64,000 nucleotides of DNA from Bifidobacterium sp. ESL0800 (GCF_029395355.1 NZ_CP113913.1:744001-808000), one strand, 5' to 3'; shown: positions 9,611 to 35,288, numbered from the stretch's first letter. Translations and numbers: made by a program. The notes: generated by a model from the sequence alone, not told the origin.

Positions 9611-9693
9611 AAAAACAGGTGATGTGGTCGAATGACCCCGGTTATCCACAACGCCCGGGCGTGTCGCAAAAGTTATGCACCGGATTTGCACAA
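9611..9693. promoter_or_regulatory. Shared upstream motif with DnaA-box-like sites, copy 1
   Basis: The core AAAAACAGGTGATGTGGTCG with AATGA following (9611-9635) is shared with the regions upstream of comEA and of the gene at 34182. It is followed by a perfect DnaA box TTATCCACA (9642-9650), a near-match TTATGCACC (9673-9681) and TTTGCACAA (9685-9693). It sits between the divergent M23 gene and tag. A TTGCAC ... TATAAA pair (spacing about 19) that could drive tag overlaps the last site. Confidence 0.55.
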
Positions 9694-9753
9694 CTGCCGA
9701 GGCTCAAGAGTATAAAAAGACGTAATCGACGAAAAGAAAGGGACGTTAAAGCT

Positions 9754-10389
9754 ATGGGTGTCGAAAAGCAGGCAGCGGAAACGGGCTCCGGGGATACCAA
9801 CGCCCAGACGACGATTCATCATGACGGTCTGCATCGTTGCTGGCCGGAATCCTACCTCAGTCTCAGCCATGACATGCTGGTCTATCACGACACCGAATGG
9901 GGCACGCCCTGCTATGATTCGCAGGCCCTGTTCGAACGTCTTGCACTCGAAGCCATGCAGGCCGGGCTTTCGTGGAACACCATCATCAACAAGCGCAAGG
10001 CCATTGATGCCGCCTTCCATGATTTCGACATCAAACGGGTCGCTCAGATGGAGCCCGAGATTCCCCGACTGATGAACGACGTGGCCATCATACGCAACCG
10101 ACGGAAAATAGAAGCCATCATTCATAACGCACAGGTTGCGCTGGATCTTGATATGCCGTTTTCCGAGTACATCTGGAGCTTCGCCCCTGACGGTCCGCGC
10201 GTGAACAGACCGAAGAGCCCCGAGGAGGTCCCTGCCGTAACGAAAGAATCCACTGATATGAGCAAGGCGATGAAAAAGGCCGGGTTCAAATTCGTCGGGC
10301 CGACCACCATATACGCCTACATGCAGTCGATGGGCATCGTCAACGACCATCTGCAAGGCTGCTTCAGATGCCCCGGAACAGGGAACTGA
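9754..10389 (+). CDS. tag: DNA-3-methyladenine glycosylase I
   Basis: A 211-residue base-excision repair enzyme removing 3-methyladenine from DNA. Family landmarks are the N-terminal RCWPES and YHDTEWG (tryptophan/base pocket), the helix LEAMQAGLSWNTIINKR in the helix-hairpin-helix fold, and the KFVGPTTIYAYMQSMGIVNDH block. A conserved Cys/His set (RCW, and GCFRCPG with the histidine of NDHLQGC) provides the zinc snap at the C-terminus. The ATG at 9754, preceded by AAAGGGACG, is preferred over an upstream frame of 57 codons without family similarity. It is divergent from the M23 gene and shares the DnaA-box-containing intergenic region. Confidence 0.95.
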   Translation: MGVEKQAAETGSGDTNAQTTIHHDGLHRCWPESYLSLSHDMLVYHDTEWGTPCYDSQALFERLALEAMQAGLSWNTIINKRKAIDAAFHDFDIKRVAQMEPEIPRLMNDVAIIRNRRKIEAIIHNAQVALDLDMPFSEYIWSFAPDGPRVNRPKSPEEVPAVTKESTDMSKAMKKAGFKFVGPTTIYAYMQSMGIVNDHLQGCFRCPGTGN

Positions 10390-10428
10390 TCTGGTTGCCG
10401 CCTTGCTGCACCGAAAGCTTGTGTATCA

Positions 10429-12417
10429 TCATTGTCCGCACAGACCCTGACGCAGCATGATGCCGTAGGCTTCGCGGCCACCGCCCTCGCCAGGTGTCAG
10501 GTGCGTGCCGTCGTCATAGAAGTACTCAGGATGGCCGTTGCTGACAGAATACCAGTCCAGCAAACCGACGTTCTTGTGTTTGGCGGCCACTGAACGCAGA
10601 ATCTGGTTGTTGGAATCCTGCCAGCCGGTAGGGGCACGGACAGTGGTGAGATAGAGAGGTTCGTCACCCACCGACGCGATCAGATTCTCCACTTGCTGCT
10701 CGTCGGCGATGCTGTCGTTGGTGCCGAGCGCCATGACAACGACGCTGCCGGCCTGGCCTTGCGCCTGATGCTGGTGGAAAAGGTCGGAGCCTGTAGAGAA
10801 ATGACGGCCGACCATATTGTCCTGCACGCTCGCCGGAATGTGCTCCTGGACGAAATCATGGGCACCCATTTCCACGGAATCGCTGATAATGAGAGGGTTC
10901 GCGCTGCACAAGCCGGTCGTAACGTCATACGTCCAGCCTTTGGTATCGAGGTTTTTGGGAACTTTGGCGGCTTTTGGTACCAGACGCGGAGGAAGGTTCA
11001 GCGACGGCTTGGGCACTGCCGACCGGCGCAGCGTCAGAAGGTCGCGATTGACCGGTGTGGCAATGCCAAGGCTGCGCTCGACGGAAAGATATTCCTGATG
11101 CAAAACCGTTGAACGTTTGGCGGCAATCTGGTTGAAATCAACCGGAAGCGCCGTGCATGCCACCACCGCGACGACACCGCATGTGGCGAGAATCTTGGTG
11201 ACCAGTCGCATCTCACGCAACGGCACCTTGTTCTCCGGAACCACTTTTCGAACTACTTCAGCTGCCTGATAGAAGGCCTCGCAGGCAGCCCAAAGCACCA
11301 TGAACTGAATGATCCATTCCCACCAGCGCAGCGGCTGCGTACGGACGGCAGGGTTCATGAACTCCAGCAACGGGTAATGGACCAGATACATCGAAAAGGA
11401 ACGTGACCCGATATAGCGCAGGACCCGCAAGCCCATGAGCGAACGGCAAAGATTGCCCGGAACCAGGACAATGGCGAGAAGCGAGGCGACGATCAGAGCC
11501 ACGGCTTGGAAACCGCCGCGGTAAAGCATGGCATCGTTCCCGCTACAAACGCAATACAAGATAATCAGCGCGGCAAGGAGACAGCACCCTGCTCCGGCGA
11601 GCAGAAGATTTGCAGGAGTCGCCCAACGCGGGGCACCTGATCGTTCCGTGTCCGTTGCGTCGGCTTTTTGGCCATGCTTTGTTTGCGCCTGTTCGACCAT
11701 GAACGCGAGCAAAGCTCCGATCATCAATTCCGAAAAGCGTGTGTCAAGACCGTAATAGACGCGTGACACGTCGGCACCGGGCGTATAGAGCAATACCATC
11801 TCAGCCGTAGAGGCGACGGCGAGCAGCAAGGTGATCAGGAATCGTGCGCGCAGCTTGAGATGGAGACGATGCATGAGCCAGAGCAGGGAAATCCAGACCA
11901 GATAGAACTGCATGGTGAGCGCGAGAAACCACAGGTGCGTAAGCGGCGATGGAAGTCCTGCGGCGCTGAAATAGGAAACCTTGCGGAAGATATAGACCCA
12001 ATTGCTGGCGTAGAAGGCGCTGGGCAACGCGTCGATATGCAGTTTTGGCAGCATGCCCGGAGACAGCAGATAAGCGGCCGGCACGACCAGGGCGATCAGG
12101 GATAGCAACGGGAAGGTCAGACGTTTGATTTTGCGCCAAATATAGCTGGCGTAGTGAAACCCTTGTGAGCTGGACATCCGTCGTTCTACGCTGCCGGTTA
12201 TCAGAAAACCTGAGATGACGAAGAAGATGGTGACACCCAGGAATCCGCCGTTGAGAAGGGAGGGACGGACATGATAGGCCACCACCCCGATAATCGCCAA
12301 AGCACGAAGGCCATCGATCGCGTTGTTGCGGGAAGGACGGGAAGCGTCCGGTACACGGGAGGAATCAGACACATTCATTTCAGCCGTTTTCGGGCCGTTC
12401 ACGGTGTGTCCCAACAT
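10429..12417 (-). CDS. OatA-like membrane acyltransferase with extracellular SGNH domain
   Basis: About 662 residues. The N-terminal half is an acyltransferase-3 domain with some ten helices (from about 30 to 400), beginning with AIDGLRALAIIGVVAYH; the histidine and arginine are characteristic. The C-terminal part (about 500-662) is an SGNH hydrolase fold: SDSVEMGAHDF block I, GTNDS block III, and the DGTHLTPGEGG catalytic Asp/His block V. This architecture O-acetylates peptidoglycan or surface polysaccharide. The ATG at 12417 follows a TTG; AAGAGG is close upstream. It is single, with tRNA-Asn upstream on the same strand and tag converging from the left. Target polymer unknown. Confidence 0.9.
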   Translation of the reverse strand: MLGHTVNGPKTAEMNVSDSSRVPDASRPSRNNAIDGLRALAIIGVVAYHVRPSLLNGGFLGVTIFFVISGFLITGSVERRMSSSQGFHYASYIWRKIKRLTFPLLSLIALVVPAAYLLSPGMLPKLHIDALPSAFYASNWVYIFRKVSYFSAAGLPSPLTHLWFLALTMQFYLVWISLLWLMHRLHLKLRARFLITLLLAVASTAEMVLLYTPGADVSRVYYGLDTRFSELMIGALLAFMVEQAQTKHGQKADATDTERSGAPRWATPANLLLAGAGCCLLAALIILYCVCSGNDAMLYRGGFQAVALIVASLLAIVLVPGNLCRSLMGLRVLRYIGSRSFSMYLVHYPLLEFMNPAVRTQPLRWWEWIIQFMVLWAACEAFYQAAEVVRKVVPENKVPLREMRLVTKILATCGVVAVVACTALPVDFNQIAAKRSTVLHQEYLSVERSLGIATPVNRDLLTLRRSAVPKPSLNLPPRLVPKAAKVPKNLDTKGWTYDVTTGLCSANPLIISDSVEMGAHDFVQEHIPASVQDNMVGRHFSTGSDLFHQHQAQGQAGSVVVMALGTNDSIADEQQVENLIASVGDEPLYLTTVRAPTGWQDSNNQILRSVAAKHKNVGLLDWYSVSNGHPEYFYDDGTHLTPGEGGGREAYGIMLRQGLCGQ

Positions 12418-12621
12418 CAACCTCTTCTTTGTTCCCCGTCAATTTGCGACCATCACATCTCCGGTCACAAGGCAGTACAGTAACAAAAGGCATAGATGCT
12501 TTGGCAGGATTGACACGCCGTTGCCTGTGTTGGCTCGCCCGACACGTTTCGACCGGCCCAAAGGCTTCCAGACTTGTAGCGAGGTCGCCTGCATCGATGA
12601 GGCGATCCGACCGTATACGAA

Positions 12622-12652
12622 AATTCTCGGAACCGTTAAGATTCCGAGAATT
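12622..12652 (-). terminator. Terminator after tRNA-Asn
   Basis: AATTCTCGGAA (12622-12632) and TTCCGAGAATT (12642-12652) give an 11-bp stem with a 9-base loop. On the minus strand a TTTTCG tract follows. It starts 7 bases after the tRNA. Confidence 0.8.
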
Positions 12653-12659
12653 CATTGAG

Positions 12660-12732
12660 CTCCCGCAGCTGGGCTTGAACCAGCGACATTCTGATTAACA
12701 GTCAGACGCTCTGCCAACTGAGCTATGCGGGA
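12660..12732 (-). tRNA. tRNA-Asn (anticodon GTT)
   Basis: A 73-base cloverleaf on the minus strand: acceptor TCCCGCA pairs with TGCGGGA, discriminator G, anticodon stem TCTGA/TCAGA enclosing CTGTTAA, and T-arm GGTTCAAGCC. CCA is not encoded. Confidence 0.97.
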
Positions 12733-12856
12733 ATGTCCCGTACGGAGCTTCAAGCACCGCACAAGAAATATATCTTATACAAGAATCGTCATCTCGCAAC
12801 CCCGATGGCGTGTCGCTTGATTTTTGCGGGATGTCGCGATTCCGACCGACGGCACG

Positions 12857-13900
12857 TCACACGCTGATGATGTTCATGGGCATGGCCGAGTCGATGGGGA
12901 AATCGGGAGCGGAGGGACGCACGCCGGCCTCGACGAGGTTGACGCCCAGCATCGCGACCATCGCGCCGTTGTCGGTGCACAGTTTGATCTGCGGGATACG
13001 GACTTCGACGCCATGCTCCTTACCCACCTCGAGCAGCTTGGCACGCAGTTGGGAATTGGCGGAGAAGCCGCCTCCGACGATCAGCGTCTTGGAACCGTAT
13101 TCCTCGCAGCCATGCATGGCCTTGTTGGCCAGAACTGTAGCCACGGAATCCGCCAGCGAGGCGCAGACGTCATCGACCGGAATTTGCTTGCCCGCCGCCT
13201 GCTGGGCCTCTACCCAACGAGCCACGGCCGTTTTGACGCCGGAAAAGCTGAAGTCATAGGGGTGCTCCTTGCCGGCCTTGCCCTTGGTGAGCCCCTGCGG
13301 CACCTTGATGGCGTGCGGGTCGCCCAACTGGCCGTGCCGGTCGATATGAGGGCCTCCCGGGTAGGGGAAGCCAAGCAGACGCGCGACCTTGTCGAAGCAC
13401 TCCCCCGCGGCGTCGTCCAGCGTGGTGCCGACCACATCCACATGACGGGCGACGTCTTCGACGTGCAGCAACGAGGTATGGCCGCCGGAGACGATAAGCG
13501 CCAACGTGTCTTTCGGGAACGGGCCGAACTGCAGCTGGGTGACGGCGATGTGGCCGATGACGTGGTTGATGCCGTAGATCGGCTTGTTGGCGGCCCACGC
13601 CAAGGCCTTGGCCCCGGAAACGCCTACGGCAAGGCAGCCGGCCAGGCCGGGACCCGCCGAAACCGCGATGGCGTCGACATCGGAAAGCTCCATATTCGCG
13701 TCGGCCAGTGCCTTTGAGACCACGGGTACGAAGGCTTCGGCGTGCGCGCGAGAGGCGATCTCGGGAATCACGCCGCCGTATCGTGCGTGTTCCTCCATCG
13801 AGGAGGCGACGACGTTGGAGACCAGCGTGCGTCCGCGCACGATGGCCGCCGCGGTCTCGTCACAGGTCGATTCGATGCCCAGTACTGTCGGTTCGCTCAT
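12857..13900 (-). CDS. tsaD: tRNA N6-adenosine threonylcarbamoyltransferase
   Basis: The 347-residue catalytic subunit that transfers the threonylcarbamoyl group to A37 of ANN-decoding tRNAs (t6A). It has the ASKHA ATPase fold: GIESTCDETA at the start, the metal-binding NHVIGH (about 110-115), SGGHTSLL and GGFSANSQLR near the end. Length is standard. Its ATG overlaps the rimI stop (ATGA), so translation is coupled. It is the last gene of the comEA-to-tsaD operon, which supplies three of the pathway's proteins (TsaE, TsaB, TsaD); the L-threonylcarbamoyl-AMP synthase gene is not in the window. Confidence 0.98.
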   Translation of the reverse strand: MSEPTVLGIESTCDETAAAIVRGRTLVSNVVASSMEEHARYGGVIPEIASRAHAEAFVPVVSKALADANMELSDVDAIAVSAGPGLAGCLAVGVSGAKALAWAANKPIYGINHVIGHIAVTQLQFGPFPKDTLALIVSGGHTSLLHVEDVARHVDVVGTTLDDAAGECFDKVARLLGFPYPGGPHIDRHGQLGDPHAIKVPQGLTKGKAGKEHPYDFSFSGVKTAVARWVEAQQAAGKQIPVDDVCASLADSVATVLANKAMHGCEEYGSKTLIVGGGFSANSQLRAKLLEVGKEHGVEVRIPQIKLCTDNGAMVAMLGVNLVEAGVRPSAPDFPIDSAMPMNIISV

Positions 13901-14496
13901 TGCATTTGCTCCATATTCTGTTTGACGCTGCCGAATCCCATGATATGCGTTTCGAGGTCCAACGCCATTTCGACGGCATCGATGTCTTCGGGCTGATAGT
14001 AATGCCGCAGCAGGCCGATATCGTTGAATCCACGGTTATGATACAGGCGTTTTGCCGGTTCGTTGTCTACCCGGACTTCCAGTTTGATTCGACGGACCTT
14101 GCAGGACCGCGCATAGTCGATCAGGCCGTCGAGCAGGTTGCCGGCTATGCCTTGTCGCTGGAAACGTTTGGCGACGCCGATGGTCATGATTTCGGCTTGG
14201 CCGTCGGCGTGCCACATGCCGGCGTACCCGCGCATAAGCGGATATGACGGAGATGGCCGTGGTGATTTTCGTCGGGCCGCGGTATCCTGCCCTGATCCTC
14301 CGGGGTCGGCGGCATCGGTGAAGTCCGTGGGATTGGCGGAATCCGTGATATCGGCAAGATAGATTCTGGAAGGGTCCGCCATCTCGCAACGCAGGGTATC
14401 CAGATTCCAAGCCTCGCTGCCGAAAAGTTCCGTCTCGAGCCTGGCCGCGGCTTCTAGCACCCGCTGCCGGTCAAGCGCACCGAATTCGACGATCAT
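13897..14496 (-). CDS. rimI: Ribosomal protein S18-alanine N-acetyltransferase (GNAT family)
   Basis: A 199-residue GNAT acetyltransferase. The acetyl-CoA binding motif is visible as RFQRQGIAGNLLDGLIDYA, and the later VRVDNEPAKRLYHNRGF is the common RimI signature. A Ser/Asp/Pro-rich insertion at about 55-85 lengthens it relative to the usual 150-160 residues. Position between tsaB and tsaD, with a four-base overlap to tsaD, is the standard actinobacterial arrangement and supports the name. The expected target is the N-terminal alanine of ribosomal protein S18; this specificity is inferred from context. Confidence 0.9.
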   Translation of the reverse strand: MIVEFGALDRQRVLEAAARLETELFGSEAWNLDTLRCEMADPSRIYLADITDSANPTDFTDAADPGGSGQDTAARRKSPRPSPSYPLMRGYAGMWHADGQAEIMTIGVAKRFQRQGIAGNLLDGLIDYARSCKVRRIKLEVRVDNEPAKRLYHNRGFNDIGLLRHYYQPEDIDAVEMALDLETHIMGFGSVKQNMEQMQ

Positions 14497-14503
14497 CTGC
14501 GTT

Positions 14504-15436: not shown

Positions 15437-15615
15437 ATTTGCCGCTCCTAGATTCCATACCATCCGGACTGCGAATGCTGACGACGGATGGCGATTCATG
15501 CCTTTGCTACTGTACAACGGCGACAAAACCGACGAAACTCGGCATGGTTATACGCTCCTCAGCCGGTGCCGATACATTTCGGTACGACCTACGAAACGGA
15601 TTCGTCGGCCTTCGC

Positions 15616-16212
15616 CTAGTGGCGTTCATCGAGTTGCTGGTTGAAATCCTTCCAGCGTGCGCCGACGGGAACGAAGGTCACCGTACGCATGCCGTCACCG
15701 CTCAGTTCTGCATCCGTCTCATCGATGTGCGCTGCAATGGCTGAACGGTCAATCGGACGGTCGATATGCACTTCGAGACGTTCGGGCGCGAAAGCGGAGG
15801 CCATCTGCTCGCCCCACTCCATCAGAATGACTGTATGCTCGCCCGGATCTTCAAGCTCCTCGTCAAGCCCCAACGATTCCAACTCGTCAAGCAGCCTGTC
15901 AACGGTGTCTTGTCCGGGCGCGAAATCGTTGCCTCCCAGCCGGTAGGCGTCGACATGCACCAGATGGGCGTGCGTGCCGTCGACGAACCTGCCATCGAGT
16001 TCCCTGGCGATGGTGAAGGTCGGGGAAACAATGGGTTCGTCGATATTGAGCCCCGCTCCAAAGCCCTGCGCAAAAGTGGTCTTGCCGGCACCCAATGGCC
16101 CTGAAAGCAGAAGAACGTCACCTCCGTGGACGTTTGCCGCCACTTTCTCTCCGAGATCCTGCATGTCGGTTTCGGTCGGTATTTCAAGGGTATACGAAGA
16201 TTCATTGCTCAT
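15616..16212 (-). CDS. tsaE: tRNA threonylcarbamoyladenosine biosynthesis ATPase TsaE
   Basis: A 198-residue P-loop ATPase. Walker A is GPLGAGKTTF (about 38-47), followed by SPTFTIARE and HVDAYRL, and the EWGEQ segment that is diagnostic of TsaE. The C-terminus (from about 140) runs some 40 residues past the usual core. The ATG at 16212 overlaps the holA stop (ATGA), so translation is coupled. TsaE drives turnover of the TsaB-TsaD complex. The gap to tsaB (about 180 bases) is the largest in this operon and has no visible terminator. Confidence 0.96.
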   Translation of the reverse strand: MSNESSYTLEIPTETDMQDLGEKVAANVHGGDVLLLSGPLGAGKTTFAQGFGAGLNIDEPIVSPTFTIARELDGRFVDGTHAHLVHVDAYRLGGNDFAPGQDTVDRLLDELESLGLDEELEDPGEHTVILMEWGEQMASAFAPERLEVHIDRPIDRSAIAAHIDETDAELSGDGMRTVTFVPVGARWKDFNQQLDERH

Positions 16213-17198
16213 ACGTTCATGCGTCCTTTGTGGCTGATCAGTTCGATGGAGCGTTCCAGCGCGTACATCGGGTCTCCCCCGTTGGTCTTGTTCTGTTCGT
16301 CGGCCCAAGCGAGTGTCCGGATGCATCTGGAGAGGCCGTCCGAGGTCCATCCGCTCAGCTGCCGTGTCGCGTTGCGCAACACCCAGGGGTTGGTTTTCGC
16401 CTCGGCCTGGGAGATGGCACCGGAACGCACCGCCGAAGCCTTGGCGAGCGTGCGCAGTTTCATCGCCAGAGCGCCCACCAAGGCGATGGGATCGGTGCCT
16501 TGGGCGACGGCGGAGCGCATGTCGATGATGGCTTTGGCATTGTTGCCCGCAAGCGCGGCATCGGCCACGGCGAATCCGGTGACTTCGGCGTTGCCGGTCA
16601 GATACCGATTGACCAGATCGAGGCCGATCGGGTCATCGTCGAAATCAAAGCAAAGCTGTTCGCACATGGCCGCCAGCTCACCGGTCTTCTCCCCTAGGAC
16701 GGCCACCAGCTGCTGGGCGGCTGCCGGATCGACGCGCCGTTTGCGGCGTTCGAAGCATTGGATGACGAAGTTCAGTTTGGCGTCGGCACGTTTGAGGTCG
16801 GGAATGCTTTTCTTTGCGGCCCCCGCTTTGGCGAGCCGGTCGATGACCCTTTTGCCCTTCTGGCCCCCATCATGCTGGGCGATCACCGTGGCCGTCGCTT
16901 CGGCAGGATCTTTGGCCATGGAGGCGCAATAGTCGACCATGGTGTCGGCCAGGGCGTCGTCGGCGTTCTGGATGTGACGGATGATGACGATGGAGCTTGC
17001 GCTGAGCAGGGACGGGCTCACAGCTTCGTCGAAGTCGTATTGGCCCGCCTCGCCGGCGTCGAGTTCGATGACCTCGGCTTCCGGGCCGTTCTTTGCGGCA
17101 GCGTCACGGCAATCGCGCACCTGCTGTTCGTTGAGAAACTCGTCTCCTCCGACAACCAGTACGAATCGGGTCTGTTGTGCAGTCCTTTTTCCAGCCAT
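16209..17198 (-). CDS. holA: DNA polymerase III subunit delta
   Basis: A 329-residue clamp-loader subunit that opens the sliding clamp. It resembles actinobacterial HolA: N-terminal FVLVVGGDEFLNEQQV, a central AAA-like region with LSASSIVIIRH, and a C-terminal helical collar with ALVGALAMKLRTLAKA. Start options are GTG at 17201 and ATG at 17198; GAGGG lies four bases before the ATG. It follows comEC on the same strand by about 110 bases and overlaps tsaE by four bases. The comEA-comEC-holA order is conserved widely in Gram-positive bacteria. Confidence 0.94.
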   Translation of the reverse strand: MAGKRTAQQTRFVLVVGGDEFLNEQQVRDCRDAAAKNGPEAEVIELDAGEAGQYDFDEAVSPSLLSASSIVIIRHIQNADDALADTMVDYCASMAKDPAEATATVIAQHDGGQKGKRVIDRLAKAGAAKKSIPDLKRADAKLNFVIQCFERRKRRVDPAAAQQLVAVLGEKTGELAAMCEQLCFDFDDDPIGLDLVNRYLTGNAEVTGFAVADAALAGNNAKAIIDMRSAVAQGTDPIALVGALAMKLRTLAKASAVRSGAISQAEAKTNPWVLRNATRQLSGWTSDGLSRCIRTLAWADEQNKTNGGDPMYALERSIELISHKGRMNV

Positions 17199-17313
17199 CA
17201 CACCCTCGATTCCTTTCGGTTACCTGATATGGCCACCATCGCGGCGGAACTCCTACGACTTTCTATGATATTCGATGCGGTGTCATCGGTGGACATGCGC
17301 CGTGTCTCTCGGT

Positions 17314-19155
17314 TCAACTCGGCTTGCCAACCTGTTCGAACATTTGTTCGGTTTCTTTGACCCATATCGCTCCTTTGCTTTTCACTCGCATGAGCAAACC
17401 GTCATCACTGGTTACCACGCCTTTCGGATTGCGCTTTTTCGTCATAATGGACAACGCCCTGAACAGCAGTACCGTGCCGACTTCGCAGACGACTACCATC
17501 AACGCCCCTCCAACCCCACCGGCCCAAGGCATGGTGGCGGTTGGCGCACCGCCGATGGTATCCGCGCACCATTGCATCACCGAAGTTCCGCAACTCGACA
17601 GCCACACCAACACAAACGCCAAATGAGGGGCCAACGGCGAAAAGACCAAACCCGCCAGGCCCGTCAGCGTGGAGAAATCGACAAACGGAGCCACCACCAG
17701 GTTCGCGGGAACCGACAGCAACGGCAATGTCGGTGTCATCATCACCTGTATCGGCAAGGTGAACAGCTGGGCGGCTAGGGTCACCGAAATGCCGTTTGCA
17801 AGGAATTTCGGCAAGAGTGTCGAAAGATGCTCCGATATCGGGCCGGCACACAGCACAATTCCCAGCACCGACGCACACGACAAGGCGAAACCATAGCTTC
17901 TCGCCATCGCGGGATCGGCCAGCAAGGTGAAGACGACTGTCCAGCACAGCGCACTGATCGCCTGCGGCCTTCTGCCGGCAAACAAGGCCAAAGAAGCGAA
18001 GACACCCATGATCAGCGCTCGCATCACCGAGTCGGAAGGGTACATGGCGCTCGCGAGCGCCACATAGGCCATCACCGTCAGTACCGCCACCATCTGGCGT
18101 GGCAAGAGGAACCGGGCGCAACCCGAGCGTATCAGACTGCCGATCAGCGCGAAATGACCGCCGGAAACGGCCATCAGATGCATGATGCCGGAATCCTTGA
18201 AATGCATCTCAAGCAGTGTCGCGAACGTGGCGTTGACCGGTTCGCGCCCGGTAACGCCCGCACCCATGAAATCCTGGCCCAAAAGGCCTATCGTCAATCC
18301 AGGAACAAGCACCCGTCCTTGCTCGGAAAGCCCTTCGGTCACCGAGAAGAACGAACGTTGCATGGAATCGATCAGACGAGCAACCGGCGGGGCACGTTCG
18401 AGCACCCGCATCTTGGCGTCATCGTCAGCGGTCAACCAGATTGGTCGCATGCCGTATCTCGCAGCTTCCACCCTACCGGATACCGTTACGGTTTCACCAT
18501 CCGACAGCCTCCCGCACAACGGTTTGTTCATGTACACAACGATACGAGAGTTGCTGGCCTGTCGAACATCATCGTGCATAAAGCCCGTCAGATGCGCGTT
18601 GGCCTGACAGTCCGCCTGCCATGAGCTTGCAGCGGTTATCGGCGAATCGAGGCGCACTCTTGCCTCGACCTCACTTTCGCCATTTCTGGCCAGGGTCATG
18701 ACAGGGTCATGATATGCCTTGATATCGGCACCCATCGAGGCGATCAAAGCCGTCAAAGCCGAACAAGCGAGGACCGCCGCCCACACTCTTTTATTGCCTC
18801 GCGATTCTCGCAATATCCGCGCTATTGCGCAATGGCGTCCTAACCATCGCCGGGACAAGACAAGCAGGGCAATCAGAGCAGCCATCAACGCAAGAAGCAT
18901 AACCATCGGGAGGACGATTCTCTCGTTTGATGAACCTATCAGCCAATCCGCAGCCAAGGCAAACGGCGAACCAGACGCACCTGAGCCGCCGGCAGCTTGC
19001 CCGTTGGAAGTCGAATCGCCTTGCTGCCCTGTGAGGCGGGCAAAGACCATGTGCGAAGCCAATACGACGGCCCATACGCACAACGCCACCGGAAGCATCC
19101 GCCAGTCCCTGCTGCCCTGTTCATAACCGCGAGAATCGTTCAGCCACTTGTTCAT
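17314..19155 (-). CDS. comEC: ComEC/Rec2 family DNA uptake channel
   Basis: A 613-residue polytopic membrane protein for passage of single-stranded DNA into the cell. After two or three N-terminal helices comes an OB-like extracellular part (about 140-235), then the Competence domain with the hallmark LMAVSGGHFALIG (about 330-342) and at least seven more helices. The C-terminus ends about 60 residues after the last helix, so the metallo-beta-lactamase-like nuclease domain of Bacillus ComEC is absent, as in many actinobacterial forms. Its ATG overlaps the comEA stop. No pilin or comF gene is in the window. Confidence 0.95.
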   Translation of the reverse strand: MNKWLNDSRGYEQGSRDWRMLPVALCVWAVVLASHMVFARLTGQQGDSTSNGQAAGGSGASGSPFALAADWLIGSSNERIVLPMVMLLALMAALIALLVLSRRWLGRHCAIARILRESRGNKRVWAAVLACSALTALIASMGADIKAYHDPVMTLARNGESEVEARVRLDSPITAASSWQADCQANAHLTGFMHDDVRQASNSRIVVYMNKPLCGRLSDGETVTVSGRVEAARYGMRPIWLTADDDAKMRVLERAPPVARLIDSMQRSFFSVTEGLSEQGRVLVPGLTIGLLGQDFMGAGVTGREPVNATFATLLEMHFKDSGIMHLMAVSGGHFALIGSLIRSGCARFLLPRQMVAVLTVMAYVALASAMYPSDSVMRALIMGVFASLALFAGRRPQAISALCWTVVFTLLADPAMARSYGFALSCASVLGIVLCAGPISEHLSTLLPKFLANGISVTLAAQLFTLPIQVMMTPTLPLLSVPANLVVAPFVDFSTLTGLAGLVFSPLAPHLAFVLVWLSSCGTSVMQWCADTIGGAPTATMPWAGGVGGALMVVVCEVGTVLLFRALSIMTKKRNPKGVVTSDDGLLMRVKSKGAIWVKETEQMFEQVGKPS

Positions 19156-20033
19156 ACCGTCACCTGCCCGCGTATCTTCTCCAGCGTCTTCTGCCCGATG
19201 CCCGAGACCTTGAGCAGCTGGTCGACACTGGTGAAACGGCCGATCGACGAACGGTAGTTGATGATCTTCTGGGCCATCACCGGGCCCACTCCCTTGATCT
19301 GCTGCAGCTGTGTGCTGTCGGCGGTATTGAGGTTGACGAGGTTGCTCTCATTGCCCGAGGATGCGTTCTGTCCGCTTCCGGTTTGTGCGGGCTGGCCTGC
19401 GTACGACGAGCCGGCGTCTGTACCGGAATCGCGCTCCTCTTGTTCAGAGGAAGCCGAAGAAGAACCGGAAGTCTTGCCCTTGTTCGAAGGATTTCCCCCA
19501 GGCTGGTCGGAATCTTTGGTTTTCAAACCGGCACCGGCTCGAGTGTTTACCAATGATGAAGCTTCGGCCTGTTGCTTGTTGTAATTGACGGCCTGTGTCA
19601 CCAGCATCGTCAGACTGGCGCACAACGCCACCACCAACACCAATATCACCGCGACCGCTTGCATGGGTTTGAACACCAGTCTAGGGACGGTTCTGCGTGC
19701 GGCGTCCGTTTGGAAAGATGTTTGCTCTGACGGCTCCTCGACAAAAGCATCCTGATGAGAATCACGATCGCCCGTCAAATCACGGACTTCGACGTTGGTG
19801 GAAGCGGCGCTGCCTTCCTTTTGGTTTTCCTGTGTATTTTCCGGTTCGATAAGCCATTGCTCGATTGGCGGCAAAGGAGGCAGACCGACGCTCAAGAGTT
19901 CCTGGCCCTCGTGGTTGCGCCTGTTGCTAGATGATTCGTCACGGGACATCGCGGTCGAGCGAAGCCGTGTCGCCACGGACCGGCCTTCGTCGTGTGTTGT
20001 GTCGCCGAAATGAATACCCATACCTTCAAGCAT
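19152..20033 (-). CDS. comEA: ComEA-like DNA-binding protein with helix-hairpin-helix pair
   Basis: A 293-residue membrane-anchored DNA receptor. About 105 polar residues precede one membrane helix (about 119-143). A Ser/Gly/Asp-rich external linker (about 155-225) follows, ending in a C-terminal double helix-hairpin-helix that binds double-stranded DNA: LNTADSTQLQQIKGVGPVMA and VDQLLKVSGIGQKTLEKI. The start is uncertain; ATGs at 20033, 20021 and 19949 have no strong ribosome site. It heads the comEA-comEC-holA-tsa operon. Just upstream lie the GTGGTCGGATGA motif and three DnaA-box-like sites, suggesting shared control with two other genes in the window. Confidence 0.92.
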   Translation of the reverse strand: MLEGMGIHFGDTTHDEGRSVATRLRSTAMSRDESSSNRRNHEGQELLSVGLPPLPPIEQWLIEPENTQENQKEGSAASTNVEVRDLTGDRDSHQDAFVEEPSEQTSFQTDAARRTVPRLVFKPMQAVAVILVLVVALCASLTMLVTQAVNYNKQQAEASSLVNTRAGAGLKTKDSDQPGGNPSNKGKTSGSSSASSEQEERDSGTDAGSSYAGQPAQTGSGQNASSGNESNLVNLNTADSTQLQQIKGVGPVMAQKIINYRSSIGRFTSVDQLLKVSGIGQKTLEKIRGQVTV

Positions 20034-20061
20034 GACTGACCGGCAGGCAAAAGTCGAGCCG

Positions 20062-20149
20062 AAACGGCCACTGTGGTCGGATGATAGGGGTTATCCACAT
20101 TTGAGGCGTGTCGGGCCTTCGACCGCCGAATCATCCACATTCATCCACA
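20062..20149. promoter_or_regulatory. Shared upstream motif with DnaA-box-like sites, copy 2 (comEA)
   Basis: The core GCCACTGTGGTCGGATGATA (about 20067-20086) matches copies at 9611 and 35198. A perfect DnaA box TTATCCACA (20091-20099) follows immediately, then two identical near-matches TCATCCACA (20131-20139 and 20141-20149). The cluster starts about 30 bases upstream of comEA. Confidence 0.55.
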
Positions 20150-20287
20150 ACTCTCAGACTGATGCGGAGGCACGGAAATCAAAAAGCAGGCGAAACCATT
20201 CAACGAATCAATAGCGTTATTCAGTCCCAAGATTCACGAATTTCCGTATATCATGTATGGCTGAATTCATGGGACCATGTCTGAATA

Positions 20288-20330
20288 CGCGAAAAGGACA
20301 CCGGGTCTAAATTCCGGTGTCCTTTTCGCG
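20288..20330 (-). terminator. Strong terminator after leuS
   Basis: A perfect 17-bp inverted repeat, CGCGAAAAGGACACCGG (20288-20304) and CCGGTGTCCTTTTCGCG (20314-20330), with a 9-base loop. The stem itself carries TCCTTTT. It lies 64 bases after the leuS stop and could work in both directions. Confidence 0.85.
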
Positions 20331-20393
20331 TCAATCGTCAGATACGGTTCGATGCCATTTCATACCATGACCGACGAGAGTATCGTTTATCGA

Positions 20394-23372
<2,979 letters not shown>

Positions 23373-23500: not shown

Positions 23501-23640
23501 GCAGAGATAATCACAGAAAACGACCCGATAATGTGATTACCGTCGTATTACGACCATAAATGCGGAGATAATCACAGAAAACGGCCTGATTTCGTGATTA
23601 TCTCCGCAAGTTGCCCCACGATACAGAGATAATCACAGAA
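23501..23640. repeat. Palindromic repeat array A (three units)
   Basis: Units start at 23501, 23562 and 23623, a period of exactly 61 bases: 47-bp palindrome plus 14-bp spacer. The middle unit is the best, with arms GCGGAGATAATCAC (23562-23575) and GTGATTATCTCCGC (23594-23607) perfectly complementary around an 18-base centre. The first unit has a decayed right arm, and the third keeps only its left arm. It lies between leuS and a solute-binding protein gene. Related arrays are at 33894, 35335 and 63591. Confidence 0.9.
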
Positions 23641-28352: not shown

Positions 28353-28357
28353 ACCTG

Positions 28358-29947: not shown

Positions 29948-30125
29948 GATACCTAAGCCTATCGAACGAAATTGGAAAAAGCTGAAAATACGCAAAACCT
30001 TGCCGAACGCTTACAGGAAACGAACGCCGGTTGCACAGCAATTTCATCGGCATTGTCAAGAAATACCAAAATATCGGCAGAGACAAGGTTTTCCTGCTAG
30101 ATTAGCCTTCAACGGAAAGGTACAG

Positions 30126-30935
30126 ATGCAACAACACGGACAGCATACCACGCAATATTCGGTGTCGGAGCTGCACAAAAGCCGCCGTCATTGGCCGGCA
30201 GCATTGGTCGCGATATTGCTCGTGGCCGCTCTGGTCGCCGCAGGAAGCTTTCTCTACCTAAAGTTCCGGAAACCGAATTCGGCGGGTCTTGGCGCCAATG
30301 TCACCAGCGCGCCTAAAACTTCCCCCTCGTTGCCGGGCCGATCCGCGCAAAAACTCAAAAGTTCCGTTGATTACAACCACAACGGCATCGATGATTACAG
30401 CGACTTCGTGCAAGGCGCACGCAAGGACGCGAATGTCCATCCCACCTATGACGACAGCTACGTGCAGGGCGGCTACCCGGCGGACAATCGCGGAGCCTGC
30501 ACCGATACCATCTGGCGCGCGTTCAAGAACGCCGGATACAGCCTCAAGGACATGGTTGACGCCGACATTGCCGCACATCCGGCCGATTACCGCAACGCCG
30601 CCTCCAACTTCGACACCAATATCGATTTCCGCCGAACCGCCGTGCTGGACGTGTTCTTCAAAAAATACGGACAGGCCCTCACTACCGATACAGCCCAAAC
30701 CGACCAATGGCAGCAGGGAGATCTCGTTTTCTTCGCCAACCAAAAGCACAATGGTCATATCGGCATGGTCTCCGACCGGCGCGATGAAAAATCAATCCCC
30801 TACCTCATCCATAACATGGGGCAGAAGGATCGCGAGAACGACTACCTCAACCAGCCGAACCATATGCCCATTCTTGCACATTACCGTTTTGACGCTTCGA
30901 AAATACCGGCTGACGTGCTGAAACCCTGGCACTGA
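30126..30935 (+). CDS. DUF1287 domain secreted or membrane-anchored protein
   Basis: A 269-residue protein with a signal anchor (about 23-47) and an extracellular DUF1287 domain. It shows the family blocks YDDSYVQGGYPADNRGACTD (with a conserved Cys), IWRAFKNAGYSLKDMVDAD, and GDLVFFANQKHNGHIGMVSD (with a conserved His). The Cys-His layout resembles NlpC/P60-like cysteine hydrolases, so cell-wall hydrolysis is plausible but unproven. GGAAAGGTACAG precedes the ATG at 30126, and an upstream-extended frame is not supported. It is divergent from the Ser/Gly-rich membrane protein gene. Confidence 0.85.
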   Translation: MQQHGQHTTQYSVSELHKSRRHWPAALVAILLVAALVAAGSFLYLKFRKPNSAGLGANVTSAPKTSPSLPGRSAQKLKSSVDYNHNGIDDYSDFVQGARKDANVHPTYDDSYVQGGYPADNRGACTDTIWRAFKNAGYSLKDMVDADIAAHPADYRNAASNFDTNIDFRRTAVLDVFFKKYGQALTTDTAQTDQWQQGDLVFFANQKHNGHIGMVSDRRDEKSIPYLIHNMGQKDRENDYLNQPNHMPILAHYRFDASKIPADVLKPWH

Positions 30936-31093
30936 GCCTTAGTCGGCAAAGCCATTATTACGTATCGCAGATGATAGTATTACCGATTCTCGAATCAGGG
31001 GTTTTGACCGGAATCAAAATAATCGGCTCTTCGGCATTACTCGAATGACGATTGCAAACAGACTATTATCGAGAACCTCTTAACCCGTGACCC

Positions 31094-32104
31094 CTACTTT
31101 TTACGACAATCGTGCACCCAATCCTCCACCCGTCGCAACAGATTGACGAAGACCGAGCGATGCAGGATAGACATGAGCACAGCCAGGAAGATCAGCGCGA
31201 AACCGACCAACGTCGTCAACCTCAGCGTCGTCGACCAGAAGAGTATCGAGAACAATTCGGAAAACAGGCTCTCCGTGCACATCACCACGGAGGCCGACGA
31301 TGCGGAGACGTGCGCCAGGCCGATGTTCTGCATGATCTGCGCCAAGGTCGTCGCCCCGATGAACAGGTAAAGGAAACTCACGATGATTTTCGGTTCCAGC
31401 CAGGAAGCATTCGGAGCCGGTTCGGTGAAAATCGCACCGATCAGGAACAGGACGCAGGCGACGGCGAATTGGACGAAGGTGACCGCGATCGCGTTGTATT
31501 TCTTGGAATAGATGCCGAGATATGTCAGATTGAACGAGAAGACGACGGCACAGGCGATGGTCATCCAATCCCCCAAGGTGAGGGCAAGCGAAAAGCCGCC
31601 CGGTTTCAGCGAGACGAAGCCGACGCCGATCAGACAGATGACTCCGGCGATGATGTTGATGTTGTGTGGCCTGTTTTTTGTGGCCAGCCAAGCGGCGAAA
31701 GGCGTCAGCACACAATAGGAAGCCGTCAGGAAAGCGCTTCTGCCGGGATCGATCGTCAGCAGCCCTTTGGTCTGCAGGACCATCGTCCCCCAGTAGGTGA
31801 CCCCGACCACGAGCGCAGGAACCTGCATCGACTTGTTGAGCGCGGGAATGATATGCTTGCCGAAAATAAGCAGCATGATCAGGCACGCCCCGCCGGTGCG
31901 CATGGCCATGAGCCATTGCGGGGTAATCGCCGTCATCGCGATCTTGGAGACCAGATAGCTGCCGCCCCACAGCGCGGCGCAACACAGCAGCATGAGTCTG
32001 GCGAGATTCGGCGGGAAATTGCGGGAAAGACGGCTGCGCAGGCCTTGGAAGCCGCGGCGGTCGGTGCCCTTCGACGAAAGGTAGGTCGCAAACGTATGCG
32101 CCAT
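31094..32104 (-). CDS. EamA/DMT family transporter
   Basis: A 336-residue inner membrane protein with a basic N-terminus of about 30 residues and then ten helices in two homologous EamA repeats (about 33-175 and 180-320). Repeat landmarks are LCCAALWGGSYLVSKIA and, at the end of the second repeat, SLFSELFSILFWSTTLRLTTLVGFALI. Members export metabolites such as amino acids or act as permeases; the substrate cannot be read from the sequence. GAGGGAGAAGG precedes the ATG. The gene is monocistronic. Confidence 0.9.
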   Translation of the reverse strand: MAHTFATYLSSKGTDRRGFQGLRSRLSRNFPPNLARLMLLCCAALWGGSYLVSKIAMTAITPQWLMAMRTGGACLIMLLIFGKHIIPALNKSMQVPALVVGVTYWGTMVLQTKGLLTIDPGRSAFLTASYCVLTPFAAWLATKNRPHNINIIAGVICLIGVGFVSLKPGGFSLALTLGDWMTIACAVVFSFNLTYLGIYSKKYNAIAVTFVQFAVACVLFLIGAIFTEPAPNASWLEPKIIVSFLYLFIGATTLAQIMQNIGLAHVSASSASVVMCTESLFSELFSILFWSTTLRLTTLVGFALIFLAVLMSILHRSVFVNLLRRVEDWVHDCRKK

Positions 32105-32595
32105 GGCCTTCTCCCTCTTGTCCTTCTCTGATTTGTTCGCTTAAGACAGCAGCGAACGAATCAGGTCTTCTCTCTCAACTCTGCCGCGTCCTTCAAGGCT
32201 TCTAGCGACCCGTACGAGCTTATTGCCCTTCGTCTCCGAAATCTGCAGGTAGGGCTGTTCAAGCCGTTTCTACAGACACGCAAACCTTGTTTGCCGCTAT
32301 TCAAAATAGACATATTCTTCTCGCGACACGCCTAGAAATACGGGGAAATTACGGTTATGGAAACATTTCACGCGTTGGTTACATTTTTCTGTCTCAGTTT
32401 GAGATTTCAGATATTGAAAACGGGAGTGAAGATGAGAGCCGCAACATATTTTCGCCGCATTACCGGTTTGCGACATCTGCATTTTCGGCATTGTTATGCT
32501 CGGTGAGCAATGTCACACGTTTATTCTAGTGAAAGAGTGCCTGACGACGTAGAATAAAAGCGTATGTAGAGCAGTTCGAACGAAAGGACAGCATT
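32105..32595. other. Long intergenic region, no gene seen
   Basis: About 490 bases between divergent genes, AT-rich in its right half (about 32290-32520). Short open frames here lack ribosome sites and similarity to anything I recognise. It must hold the promoters of the EamA gene and the PNPOx-fold gene. Confidence 0.5.
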
Positions 32596-33000
32596 ATGGC
32601 TACGCTTACCCCGGAAATGAAGGAATTCATCAACAACAACCTCGCGTGGATCGCGACCGTCAGCAAGGACGGCCAGCTCGATCTCGGCCCGAAGATGTCG
32701 ATGTACGTGCTCGACGACAACCACCTCGCCTATCACGAGCGCACCGCCGGCCAGCACTACAAGAACCTTGAGGACGGCAGCCCGCTGGTGATCTGCTTCG
32801 CCAACCTCGAAAGCAAGAAGGGCTACCGCTTCCGCGGCAACGTGACCCTGCACTCCGACGATGCGATCTACGACGAGCAGGTCAAGGTCGCCGAGGAAAA
32901 GGGCACCAAGAAGCCCGCCACCATCCCGGTGCTCGAGATCACCGAGATCCAGGATCTCTCCGCCGGCGCCAAGGCCGGCACCACCATCAGCAAGGACTGA
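32596..33000 (+). CDS. Pyridoxamine 5'-phosphate oxidase-fold (split-barrel flavin) protein
   Basis: A 134-residue single-domain protein of the PNPOx-like split barrel. The opening MKEFINNNLAWIATVSKDGQLDLGPKMS is the typical flavin-site beta hairpin, and HYKNLEDGSPLVICFANLESKKGYRFRGNV follows as the second half of the barrel. Relatives bind FMN or F420 and reduce small molecules; the partner is not known. AAAGGACAG precedes the ATG. Codon use is strongly biased (almost only C- or G-ending codons), which suggests high expression. A strong terminator follows. Confidence 0.9.
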   Translation: MATLTPEMKEFINNNLAWIATVSKDGQLDLGPKMSMYVLDDNHLAYHERTAGQHYKNLEDGSPLVICFANLESKKGYRFRGNVTLHSDDAIYDEQVKVAEEKGTKKPATIPVLEITEIQDLSAGAKAGTTISKD

Positions 33001-33048
33001 ACTTGCTGAGAACGGCTTGGGCGCTTGATTCCCGGCCGCGAACAGTGT

Positions 33049-33084
33049 GAGGACCTCCGTGATTCGTATGGAGGTCCTCTTTTT
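33049..33084 (+). terminator. Terminator after the PNPOx-fold gene
   Basis: GAGGACCTCC (33049-33058) pairs perfectly with GGAGGTCCTC (33070-33079), followed by TTTTT. Confidence 0.92.
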
Positions 33085-33154
33085 GTATGCCTGCCTTGCC
33101 TGGTATGCGCCAAAGGGCTAAAGCAGTCAGGGCTGAGTGGACGAAGGAGTGGGA

Positions 33155-33853
33155 ATGTGCCGCAGATTTTCGCTTGACCTTGATTGGGCCTCCGTTGCTT
33201 CGGATTTCGGTGTCGACGATGAAGACGTCGACACTTATGCACTGCCGGCTCGAACGTTTCGCGTCGAACCGAAGCAGACCATCGGGGTCCTCGCGGCAGG
33301 CGAGGATGGTCGACGGCATCTTTCGGGCGGCTATTGGTCGCTGGTACCTTCTTACAGCGACAAGCGGGAGCTCGCCTATCCGACCTATAACGCACGTATG
33401 GAGACAGCCGCGCAAAAGCCGACATTCAAAGACGCGATGCGAAGCCGCCGTGCCATCATCCCAGCTTCCGGGTATTTCGAATTCAAAGGCAGGCGTCCGT
33501 TTTATTTTCATGCTCAAGGCGACGCCATGCTCGCCATGGCCGGCCTGTTTTCGTGGTGGCGCGACAACGCGGATTCCCCATGGACGCTCACCGCTACGAT
33601 CCTGACCTGTGATGCCGTCGGAGAGGCGGCGAAAATCCACAACCGCATGCCGTTGCTCGTTTCGCGTGATATGACCGGACAATGGCTTGATCGCCACGTC
33701 GATGGATCTGGAATCATTGACGATATTCATACGGCGAGCCTATCTATGTCCGAAAACCTTGATTGTTATGAGGTCGCCGAACCGGCACCGGAAGAAGACG
33801 GACCTCGGTGCATCCGCCCGAAGGCAAAGCGCGTGTGCCTGAGTCTTTTCTGA
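33155..33853 (+). CDS. SRAP domain protein (YedK/HMCES-like abasic-site shield)
   Basis: A 232-residue SOS-response-associated peptidase family protein, which crosslinks to abasic sites in single-stranded DNA to protect them. The key residues are present: Cys2 (the nucleophile exposed after removal of Met1), Asn79 in NARMET, Glu109 in SGYFEF and His162 in IHNRMP. The need for Cys at position 2 fixes the start at 33155, where GAAGGAG lies five bases upstream; an ATG 18 bases earlier would mask it. Residues 60-66 (YWSLVPS) vary from the usual WGLVP. It borders the palindrome-flanked accessory island. Confidence 0.95.
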   Translation: MCRRFSLDLDWASVASDFGVDDEDVDTYALPARTFRVEPKQTIGVLAAGEDGRRHLSGGYWSLVPSYSDKRELAYPTYNARMETAAQKPTFKDAMRSRRAIIPASGYFEFKGRRPFYFHAQGDAMLAMAGLFSWWRDNADSPWTLTATILTCDAVGEAAKIHNRMPLLVSRDMTGQWLDRHVDGSGIIDDIHTASLSMSENLDCYEVAEPAPEEDGPRCIRPKAKRVCLSLF

Positions 33854-33893
33854 GCCTCAACCAGGAATGCCACAATGCAAACAAACGGACTAG

Positions 33894-34105
33894 TTACAGA
33901 ATTAATCACAGTTTTGGCCTCATTTTTGTGATTAATTCTGTAAAATCGCTCATGATGCAGAGAACATCACATTTTTAGTGCATTTTCTGTGATTAGCGTC
34001 GTACACCGAAGATGCTAATCACACTTTTACCCCATTATCATGATTATCTCTGTACGTCGAAGACGCTAATCACACTTTCGATTCGAAGTTTATTCCACGA
34101 TTTTC
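33894..34105. repeat. Palindromic repeat array B (three units and a decayed fourth)
   Basis: Unit 1 (33894-33943) has perfect 17-bp arms TTACAGAATTAATCACA / TGTGATTAATTCTGTAA. Unit 2 (33957-34003) and unit 3 (about 34009-34054) keep the TAATCAC...GTGATTA core with more mismatches; a fourth at about 34060 is decayed. The spacing of the TCAC landmark is 61, 52 and 51 bases, so spacers are 14 and then about 5 bases. It lies between the SRAP gene and the 3' end of the AbiEi/nuclease-like gene. Confidence 0.85.
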
Positions 34106-34181
34106 CTGAATTTATGCTGCTTTAACATCGTAAAAGTGGCCCAACAAATCAGATAACCAATGTGACCAGGTATGGCGTTGA

Positions 34182-35159
34182 TTATCTGCTCCAAAACATC
34201 GTTCTGTCAGCGATGCGGGGAACACCAGCCTCAATCAGCTTTTTCGTCACCGTATCACGTTGCAATATATCTTTGTAGTCGAAACGCACTATTTGCGAAA
34301 CGCCGGAATTCAGCAAATCCTGCTCGCGTTGCTTCTCGGCATGAACAACCTGACGAATGCTCTGTCCGCCCGTCATAGTGGCGTCGGTGTATTTGTTCAT
34401 ACCGTCATATTCAACAACGACAGCTTTCCCGTTTGCGAGCCGGTACAATCCATCAACCCTATATCTTCGACCATCCTGCATCCGGAATTCCTGTTGCAGT
34501 TCAGGGGCCGGGAAACCTTCTTCGATGATGATTGCGCGGCACAGCGACTCTCCCCCATTTTCGCTTCTTGAGTCTGCATAGCGCAGCAGCACACCAATTC
34601 TGGCTTCAACAGCTGGCACAGCCTTCGAGGTCTGCATCAACGCTGACTTCGTTGTCAGCCGTTTTCTCAATGCTGAATCGATTATCGGCAGCACCTCGTG
34701 GAATTCGAATCTTGCCGCACAATCAAGCAAAGCCTGAGTAACCGAGGTCATGGACCGGTCTTTGTCAAAGAGCGTCTCGTTCGGTGTGACGTGAACGTAT
34801 CGTGTTTTGCTTGTTTTGGCAACACCAATTGCTTTTGTAGACGCCAGAAATATCGTTTGTTGCTCGTTTAGCCAGAAAGGATACTCGATTCCGTAGAGCG
34901 CAATCACGCTCAGACCTGCAAAAATCAATTCCGGACGCCAGATATGCAGTCCTCGTATTATCCATACATACTGCTGTTGCACGCTAAGATTCCGCCAAAT
35001 GTCTTGCAATGCGTACAAACCACGCCTTGCCCTGATCACCTGTCCCGATCGGGTAAGCCTGTAAAGAATTTCCTGGTCAGCGTGGCTTGCAACGTACAGA
35101 CATCGTCCATGGCTCGCTGCCTCATGCAGTTCGTCTTCGATACGTTTGTTGATCTTCAT
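34182..35159 (-). CDS. AbiEi-like wHTH protein fused to a DUF559-like PD-(D/E)XK domain
   Basis: A 325-residue two-part protein. Residues about 1-150 resemble the AbiEi antitoxin: a winged helix (ILYRLTRSGQVIRARRGLYA) followed by a helical part (WIIRGLHIWRPELIFAGLSVIALYG). Residues about 200-325 resemble DUF559/Vsr-like nucleases: Glu204 (GGESLCR), Asp236 (YRVDG), Glu250 and Asp252 (VVVEYDG), then REQDLLNSGVSQIVRF. No AbiEii toxin gene is adjacent, so a classical type IV toxin-antitoxin pair is unlikely. The gene stands alone, is more AT-rich than its neighbours, and is bracketed by palindrome arrays B and C. Its upstream region carries the motif also found before comEA. Nuclease activity is predicted, not shown. 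Confidence 0.8.
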   Translation of the reverse strand: MKINKRIEDELHEAASHGRCLYVASHADQEILYRLTRSGQVIRARRGLYALQDIWRNLSVQQQYVWIIRGLHIWRPELIFAGLSVIALYGIEYPFWLNEQQTIFLASTKAIGVAKTSKTRYVHVTPNETLFDKDRSMTSVTQALLDCAARFEFHEVLPIIDSALRKRLTTKSALMQTSKAVPAVEARIGVLLRYADSRSENGGESLCRAIIIEEGFPAPELQQEFRMQDGRRYRVDGLYRLANGKAVVVEYDGMNKYTDATMTGGQSIRQVVHAEKQREQDLLNSGVSQIVRFDYKDILQRDTVTKKLIEAGVPRIADRTMFWSR

Positions 35160-35197
35160 ATCACAAACTCTAATGAATTTGCTCCGATTTGCGGGGC

Positions 35198-35288
35198 AAA
35201 AACAGGTACTGTGGTCGAATGATAGCCAGTGCGGAAAATCTCGGGCGTTTCGTGCATAACTTTTCGGTTATACACATCGCTATCCACA
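35198..35288. promoter_or_regulatory. Shared upstream motif with DnaA-box-like sites, copy 3
   Basis: The core AAAAACAGGTACTGTGGTCG continuing into AATGATAG (35198-35225) is nearly identical to copies 1 and 2. A 9-mer TTATGCACG on the minus strand (35251-35259), TTATACACA (35268-35276) and CTATCCACA (35280-35288) follow. It starts 39 bases upstream of the AbiEi/nuclease-like gene; array C begins about 45 bases further on. Confidence 0.55.

Follow-up and report, generated by a model that had tools for sequence, protein, structure and literature searches.

A common promoter element with DnaA boxes marks a probable competence regulon in Bifidobacterium

The stretch of DNA analysed here (the window) is 64 kb long, corresponds to bases 744001–808000 of the 2.25 Mb genome of Bifidobacterium sp. 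ESL0800, and carries three intergenic sites with a shared motif, located upstream of comEA and of the genes for an M23-family peptidase and an AbiEi-like nuclease. A first-pass annotation of this stretch had described a common core at the three sites, accompanied by DnaA-box-like 9-mers, and had proposed a competence-type regulon with a link to DnaA. The core is indeed shared: a 13-mer, TGTGGTCGAATGA (gene-strand form TCATTCGACCACA), is found exactly at 9623–9635 and 35210–35222, and with one mismatch at 20072–20084 (TGTGGTCGGATGA). The 20-mer around it is looser across the three sites (CAGGTGATGTGGTCGAATGA, GGCCACTGTGGTCGGATGA and CAGGTACTGTGGTCGAATGA), and the core operator itself reads TTCGACCACA at the M23 and AbiEi-like sites and TCCGACCACA at comEA. 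The sites have one common orientation and lie 51–76 bp 5' of minus-strand genes, in agreement with the earlier estimate of about 80 bases, and the two perfect boxes reported before (TTATCCACA, at 9642–9650 and 20091–20099) are joined by a third, TTATACACA, at 35268–35276. Two further regularities had been overlooked, namely a third conserved element, GGCGTGTCG/GGCGTTTCG (9658–9666, 20105–20113 and 35244–35252), and a fixed distance between the core and the start codon. The features of the three promoters and of their genes, in window coordinates, are the following (aa, amino acids).

8810–9547, minus strand: M23-family peptidase, 245 aa (PF01551, E 1e-8)
9580–9585, minus strand: putative -10 hexamer CATAGT of the M23 promoter, at the same position relative to the core as at other sites
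9623–9632, minus strand: core operator TTCGACCACA of the M23 peptidase promoter, exact match, one of 21 sites in the genome
9642–9650, plus strand: perfect DnaA box TTATCCACA at the standard spacing, 18/19 bp upstream of the core (box scan)
9658–9666, minus strand: CGACACGCC element, reading GGCGTGTCG on the plus strand (direct reading and alignment)
9673–9692, plus strand: two degenerate DnaA boxes, TTATGCACC (9673–9681) and TTTGCACA (9685–9692) (box scan)
16209–17201, minus strand: holA, DNA polymerase III delta, third gene of the comEA operon (PF21694)
17314–19155, minus strand: comEC, second gene of the operon (PF03772, E 1.4e-37)
19152–20021, minus strand: comEA, with the HHH motif (PF12836, E 1.6e-23)
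20029–20034, minus strand: putative -10 hexamer CATGCT of comEA (position in the logo)
20072–20081, minus strand: core operator TCCGACCACA of the comEA promoter (motif scan and model)
20091–20099, plus strand: perfect DnaA box TTATCCACA at the standard spacing (box scan)
20105–20113, minus strand: CGACACGCC element of the comEA promoter (direct reading)
20131–20149, plus strand: two near-perfect DnaA boxes TCATCCACA, at 20131–20139 and 20141–20149, the first 40 bp from the proximal box
34182–35159, minus strand: AbiEi_4-type winged helix with a PD-(D/E)XK-like nuclease domain, 325 aa (PF13338, E 3.6e-5)
35167–35172, minus strand: putative -10 hexamer TAGAGT, 7 bp before the ATG at 35159, a putative leaderless start (position in the logo)
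35210–35219, minus strand: core operator TTCGACCACA of the AbiEi-like nuclease promoter (motif scan and model)
35244–35252, minus strand: CGAAACGCC, a variant of the CGACACGCC element (direct reading and alignment)
35251–35259, minus strand: near-perfect DnaA box TTATGCACG (box scan)
35268–35276, plus strand: perfect DnaA box TTATACACA (box scan)
35280–35288, plus strand: near-perfect DnaA box CTATCCACA (box scan)

The longest open reading frame (ORF) of comEA starts at 20033, and the ATG at 20021, which is 63 bp from the start of the motif, is likely a leaderless start.

Inside the window alone neither component departs from chance, with four matches to the 13-mer (up to two mismatches) against 1.96 expected, and 24 single near-DnaA-boxes against 23.7 expected. 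The significance lies in the whole genome, because TGTGGTCGAATGA with up to two mismatches has 60 matches there against 11 for the reversed control pattern, a sequence model recovers 20 sites with E < 1e-7, and 26 of the 62 exact DnaA boxes precede the cores. At up to one mismatch, 19 places were found, 17 of which are upstream of a gene and in the same orientation, so that the motif is not scattered at loci unrelated to gene starts; the other two (L003 and L017) fall within coding sequence and were discarded as chance matches. The 17 upstream sites share a longer element, with the gene-strand consensus CGACACGCC...AATGTGGATAACCCCnATCATTCGACCACAGTACCCGTTTTnGCTTG, and a sequence-only model built on them found 22 places, among them the 20 just mentioned. 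Adding one weak site at lower confidence (L052, with two DnaA boxes next to a perfect core) gives the 21 accepted sites. This weak site (L052/L093, position 1032612 of G000, the genome studied here) is found 5' of a 308-aa ORF just upstream of a sigma-70 factor gene. Matches at dnaB, both in this genome (L051/L094) and in G146 (L280), were not counted as members, as they have DnaA boxes and ACACGC(C) without the core; the weak model match at the own dnaB consists of boxes and CGACACGC. Given these core-less dnaB promoters, the ACACGCC element may be associated with DnaA beyond competence. A distant blastn search of the third window site against plasmids found nothing.

The DnaA boxes provide an independent test, since the pattern that found most of the sites contains no box. 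The 150-bp stretches upstream of the 21 cores, which make up 0.14% of the genome, contain the 26 exact TTATNCACA boxes where 0.09 would be expected (p ~1e-57), and 19 of the 21 sites have at least one. Many of the remaining exact boxes cluster around dnaA (1887–1906 kb) and at dnaB. The same association was observed across six genomes: an exact box was present within 120 bp at 81 of 89 sites, whereas 801 control windows from the same loci contained none. The spacing is also constrained, since the box begins 18/19 bp upstream of the core in 58 cases and another group of boxes is found near 58 bp.

The architecture of the promoters became apparent when sites were aligned by start codon. In 61 of 101 distinct sites the ATG is 62–64 bp from the start of TCATTCG, a distance that is strongly over-represented. 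The ATG-aligned logo of these sites places the core at -60 to -51, CCCGTTT at about -47 to -41, a weak T-rich -35, and a -10 hexamer at -12 to -7 with the pattern T(-12), A/T(-11), n, n, A(-8), T(-7), which ends 6–7 bp before the ATG, and it contains no Shine-Dalgarno sequence. The fixed distance, the -10 and the missing Shine-Dalgarno sequence point to leaderless promoters of sigma-70 type, and in about 60% of the promoters the start codon would be +1 of the transcript. Around 40% of the sites have a longer leader instead; in members where the ATG is not at the fixed place (ssb, recA, M23, HigB and others) a -10-like hexamer, identified by eye, appears to be kept at the same distance from the core. 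The ACACGCC sequence stands, again by eye, either 23 or 13 bp from the core, positions that are one helical turn apart. The CGACACGCC element by itself is barely enriched in the genome (44 matches against 32 for the reversed control) and is thus informative only in context.

One cis signal is common to most of the genes for uptake and processing of DNA, including comEA/comEC, comF, dprA, ssb, recA and the pilus. The units concerned are comEA-comEC-holA, yraN (UPF0102)-comM-dprA, comFC, recA-recX and the ssb gene, together with the pilus-type units tadZ-tadA and following genes, a DUF4244 pilin-like gene and cpaB (SAF domain). The earlier suggestion of a competence-type regulon, made from the wall hydrolase and the uptake operon of the window, is therefore supported: comF, the pilin and secretion ATPase genes and dprA carry the motif, and their orthologues do so as well. 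The gene set is wider than competence. The nuclease-type units comprise four AbiEi-like proteins and an MTES_1575/DUF559 nuclease, the toxin-antitoxin-type units a HigB-like gene (Gp49), HicA, a small HicB/HTH-like gene and a unit with DUF4160, and a further small gene was named BrnT-like by eye, with no convincing Pfam match. The remaining units are the M23 peptidase, a membrane FIVAR protein and the gene of unknown function ahead of the sigma-70 factor gene. According to the model scores, the strongest sites are those of tad, cpaB, comEA and the toxin-antitoxin genes, and recA is among the weakest clear members.

Model matches were obtained in 45 of 61 Bifidobacterium genomes, with up to 23 per genome, and with a stricter cut-off in 59 of 189 Bifidobacteriaceae genomes, belonging to 4 of 16 genera. 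In G025, G033, G057, G038 and G046 the element precedes members of the same gene families, and in three genomes of other genera it is found at ssb, comFC, yraN, cpaB, AbiEi-like and MTES genes. Genomes with no model match still have comEA, some of them with a recognisably diverged element (e.g. TGTGGATAACTTCATAAGCTAGAACCACATACCCCGTTTCAGCTGGAC). A scan of the genome collection that used only comEA found no relatives. Five small genomes (G009, G014, G022, G030 and G045, 1.5–1.7 Mb) have at most one weak motif match, and comEA is kept in the four that were tested; in these members the regulon has possibly been lost or rewired.

The bases flanking the core vary between genomes and agree within each genome. 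At core position -1, for example, A prevails in G000 and G057, G in G025 and G033, and C in G038; when the labels were permuted 2000 times, the dependence on the genome observed for positions -5, -3 and -1 was never reached. Because these letters change in concert, a single protein whose preference has drifted is likely to read all the sites of a genome, which argues for a dedicated trans-acting activator of the regulon.

The relatives extend the list of targets. The same promoter element is found 5' of MazEF and YefM-YoeB pairs, of genes for an FtsK/EccC-like ATPase (L176, L177 and L286) and a WXG100 protein (L183 and L184), and of two-gene units coding for a small protein and a lipase-like protein (L135, L150, L172 and L197). 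These type VII secretion-like genes and possible effectors suggest a secretion or killing function linked to competence. Unrelated toxin-antitoxin modules (MazEF, YefM-YoeB, HigB, HicA, DUF4160) are present on the promoter across genomes (L191 and L196 in G046, L136 and L140 in G025, and L016), as if such modules had repeatedly been wired to the competence promoter.

The AbiEi-like protein of the window (34182–35159) matches PF13338 (AbiEi_4) at 24.2 bits, just under the cut-off of 25, and its AbiEi matches in PADLOC are also weak. Its C-terminal domain has an invariant E204, D236 and an ExDG motif at 250–253, which are common to the MTES_1575 nuclease of the regulon. The AlphaFold model is confident (pLDDT 85.8), and its fold matches in the PDB are all above E 0.02, with PD-(D/E)XK nucleases among the best of these weak ones, which suggests a nuclease fold for this domain. 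Any likeness to the AbiE type IV toxin-antitoxin system would reside in the N-terminal winged helix, whose AbiEi_4 match is below the cut-off, whereas the nuclease-like C-terminal domain and the absence of an adjacent AbiEii set the window protein apart. No gene for an AbiEii toxin was found among the scanned neighbours, which are an alpha-amylase (35504–36814), an ORF with no Pfam match (32987–33730) and an EamA transporter, and since this partner is lacking the assignment to AbiE was dropped. In named Bifidobacterium species, CCACA occurs exactly at -54 to -56 of the ATG in 63 of 66 AbiEi-like genes.

Two other observations were made in the window. Palindromic repeats (GAGATAATCACA ... TGTGATTATCTC), with a period of about 61 bp and several copies, are located in intergenic positions (23504–23638, 35306–35462 and 63615–63769); they resemble a family of dispersed palindromic repeats or an array of operators, and TRF found nothing at them. 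A 157-aa ORF on the opposite strand (20277–20750), between comEA and leuS, has no Pfam match and is probably not a gene.

In our view, the three window sites are very probably promoters within a single competence (DNA-uptake) regulon that comprises about 21 transcription units and is conserved across the Bifidobacteriaceae. The recurrence of the element with genome-specific operator letters points to one trans-acting activator acting together with DnaA. The promoters would follow a fixed plan, consisting of one or more DnaA boxes, usually with ACACGCC, the CCACA-ending core at -60 to -51, CCCGTTT, the weak -35 and the sigma-70-type -10 at -12 to -7. A putative activator on the core would touch RNA polymerase on the -35 side, and DnaA, which we infer to occupy these promoters with a positive effect, would assist it from just upstream. 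The genes for uptake, single-strand protection and recombination would then be turned on together, depending on the replication state, and the cells may thereby take up DNA and become competent. Several findings weigh against this proposal. Roughly half of the targets are not uptake genes but belong to toxin-antitoxin systems, code for nucleases or have no known function, a search with PF01478 for a prepilin peptidase returned only a MATE-like transporter, and no classical transcription factor gene with the motif is present among the targets read. The search for a DnaA paralogue that could read the core was negative, the only protein found with DnaA domain IV being DnaA itself. In addition, no exact box is present within 150 bp at recA or yraN-comM-dprA, which means that DnaA cannot be an absolute requirement.

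The lack of a paralogue would be explained if DnaA were the sole regulator, with the core as a low-affinity half box (nnnnnCCACA) that is filled cooperatively from the strong box 18–19 bp upstream, and with DnaA contacting RNA polymerase at -35. The CCACA half is the part of a box that is read by the helix-turn-helix of DnaA, and nearly all AbiEi-like promoters retain it as the sole constant part of the core. Some species even have a full or near-full box at the core, with TTTATCCACA in B. apri and B. thermophilum and AGTATCCACA in B. cebidarum and B. saguini, and the fixed spacing of the boxes would be expected. However, TTCGACCACA hardly varies among the 21 sites and is met again in several genera, a constancy that a weak box would not need, the concerted flanking letters suggest a partner of drifting specificity, and recA and yraN keep the core in the absence of an exact strong box, so that we consider this explanation possible but doubtful. 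A bolder form of it, likewise possible but doubtful, has DnaA as a direct activator of competence in the whole family, through strong boxes and a built-in weak half-box near RNA polymerase, coupling uptake to the replication state and co-firing toxin-antitoxin, AbiEi-type nuclease and type VII secretion-like genes as an arsenal of competence. The boxes might also serve as a titration or repression device, in which DnaA bound upstream would buffer the free protein or keep the genes silent, with competence opening once DnaA is withdrawn. They do represent a large share of all exact boxes, and DnaA is known both to activate and to repress (PMC8203912). Nevertheless, they are placed upstream of the core, at about -70 to -120, and not over the -35/-10 region where a blocking repressor sits, which makes a blocking role less likely, and their fixed spacing to the core suggests a cooperating neighbour, of which titration has no need; we therefore judge such a device unlikely.

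The membership of recA-recX and ssb would also fit a general DNA-damage (SOS-type) regulon into which uptake genes were drawn, and a DnaA link would suit replication stress. The strongest sites are nevertheless not those of repair genes, and the alignment consensus lacks the actinobacterial LexA palindrome TCGAACN4GTTCGA, for which no separate scan was made; we consider this a decidedly improbable origin. The remaining explanation, a dispersed intergenic repeat (REP/MITE-like) found near genes by accident, draws on the some 20 copies with similarity extending over 50–100 bp. Yet, apart from the two coding matches, the copies all precede genes in one orientation, their distance from the ATG is mostly fixed, orthologous genes keep the element across genera while the flanks diverge, and the operator letters are specific to each genome. 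As the copies are not independent of gene starts and orientation, a repeat or mobile element is extremely improbable, and we regard it as refuted.

The proposed competence regulon offers a concrete cis signal, a list of targets and a testable partner, DnaA, for a genus that is medically and industrially important and hard to transform. If the regulon can be turned on, bifidobacteria may become naturally transformable. It would also assign orphan families to competence (AbiEi/MTES-type nucleases, stray toxin-antitoxin pairs and the membrane FIVAR protein), and raises the possibility that DnaA is linked to gene uptake.

Among known systems, the competence regulons of Bacillota (ComK boxes in B. 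subtilis, sigma-X/ComX cin-boxes in streptococci) similarly place a single cis signal before comE-, comF-, dprA-, ssb-, recA- and pilus-type genes, and the wall hydrolase of the present set recalls the fratricin-type lysins of streptococci. They differ in that here the cis element is another one, and the core operator is not known to resemble ComK, sigma-X, Sxy/CRP or TfoX sites. The Bifidobacterium promoters also have a sigma-70-type -10 and putative leaderless starts and not an alternative sigma factor, contain DnaA boxes, and serve a Tad pilus in place of the ComG pseudopilus, with many toxin-antitoxin pairs and nucleases. Control by competence is also known for a toxin-antitoxin operon of Haemophilus influenzae (toxTA), whereas in the Bifidobacteriaceae several unrelated families (HigB, HicA, DUF4160, MazEF and YefM-YoeB) are present on one promoter element.

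Closer in gene content is Micrococcus luteus, an actinobacterium whose competence involves ComEA, ComEC and a Tad/Flp pilus, with two tad loci (PMC12849477; see also PMC4322843 and PMC8467076), and which thus shares the comEA-comEC and tad uptake genes. In the January 2026 work the regulator, signal and cascade were reported as not identified, and the control of competence in Actinomycetota was described as unknown (PMC12849477); neither it nor another M. luteus paper mentions DnaA. Our literature search, which covered sources outside subscription journals and preprints, found no published competence regulon of Actinomycetota and no paper joining DnaA boxes, competence genes and natural transformation, and a review of transcription control by DnaA does not mention competence (PMC8203912). 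The role of DnaA as a transcription factor, at sda, vpr, ywlC, ywcI and other genes of B. subtilis and at dnaA of E. coli, is similar in that boxes are found at intergenic promoters and expression is tied to replication. In contrast to those cases, the boxes described here accompany a whole regulon, and are held at a fixed spacing to a second operator.
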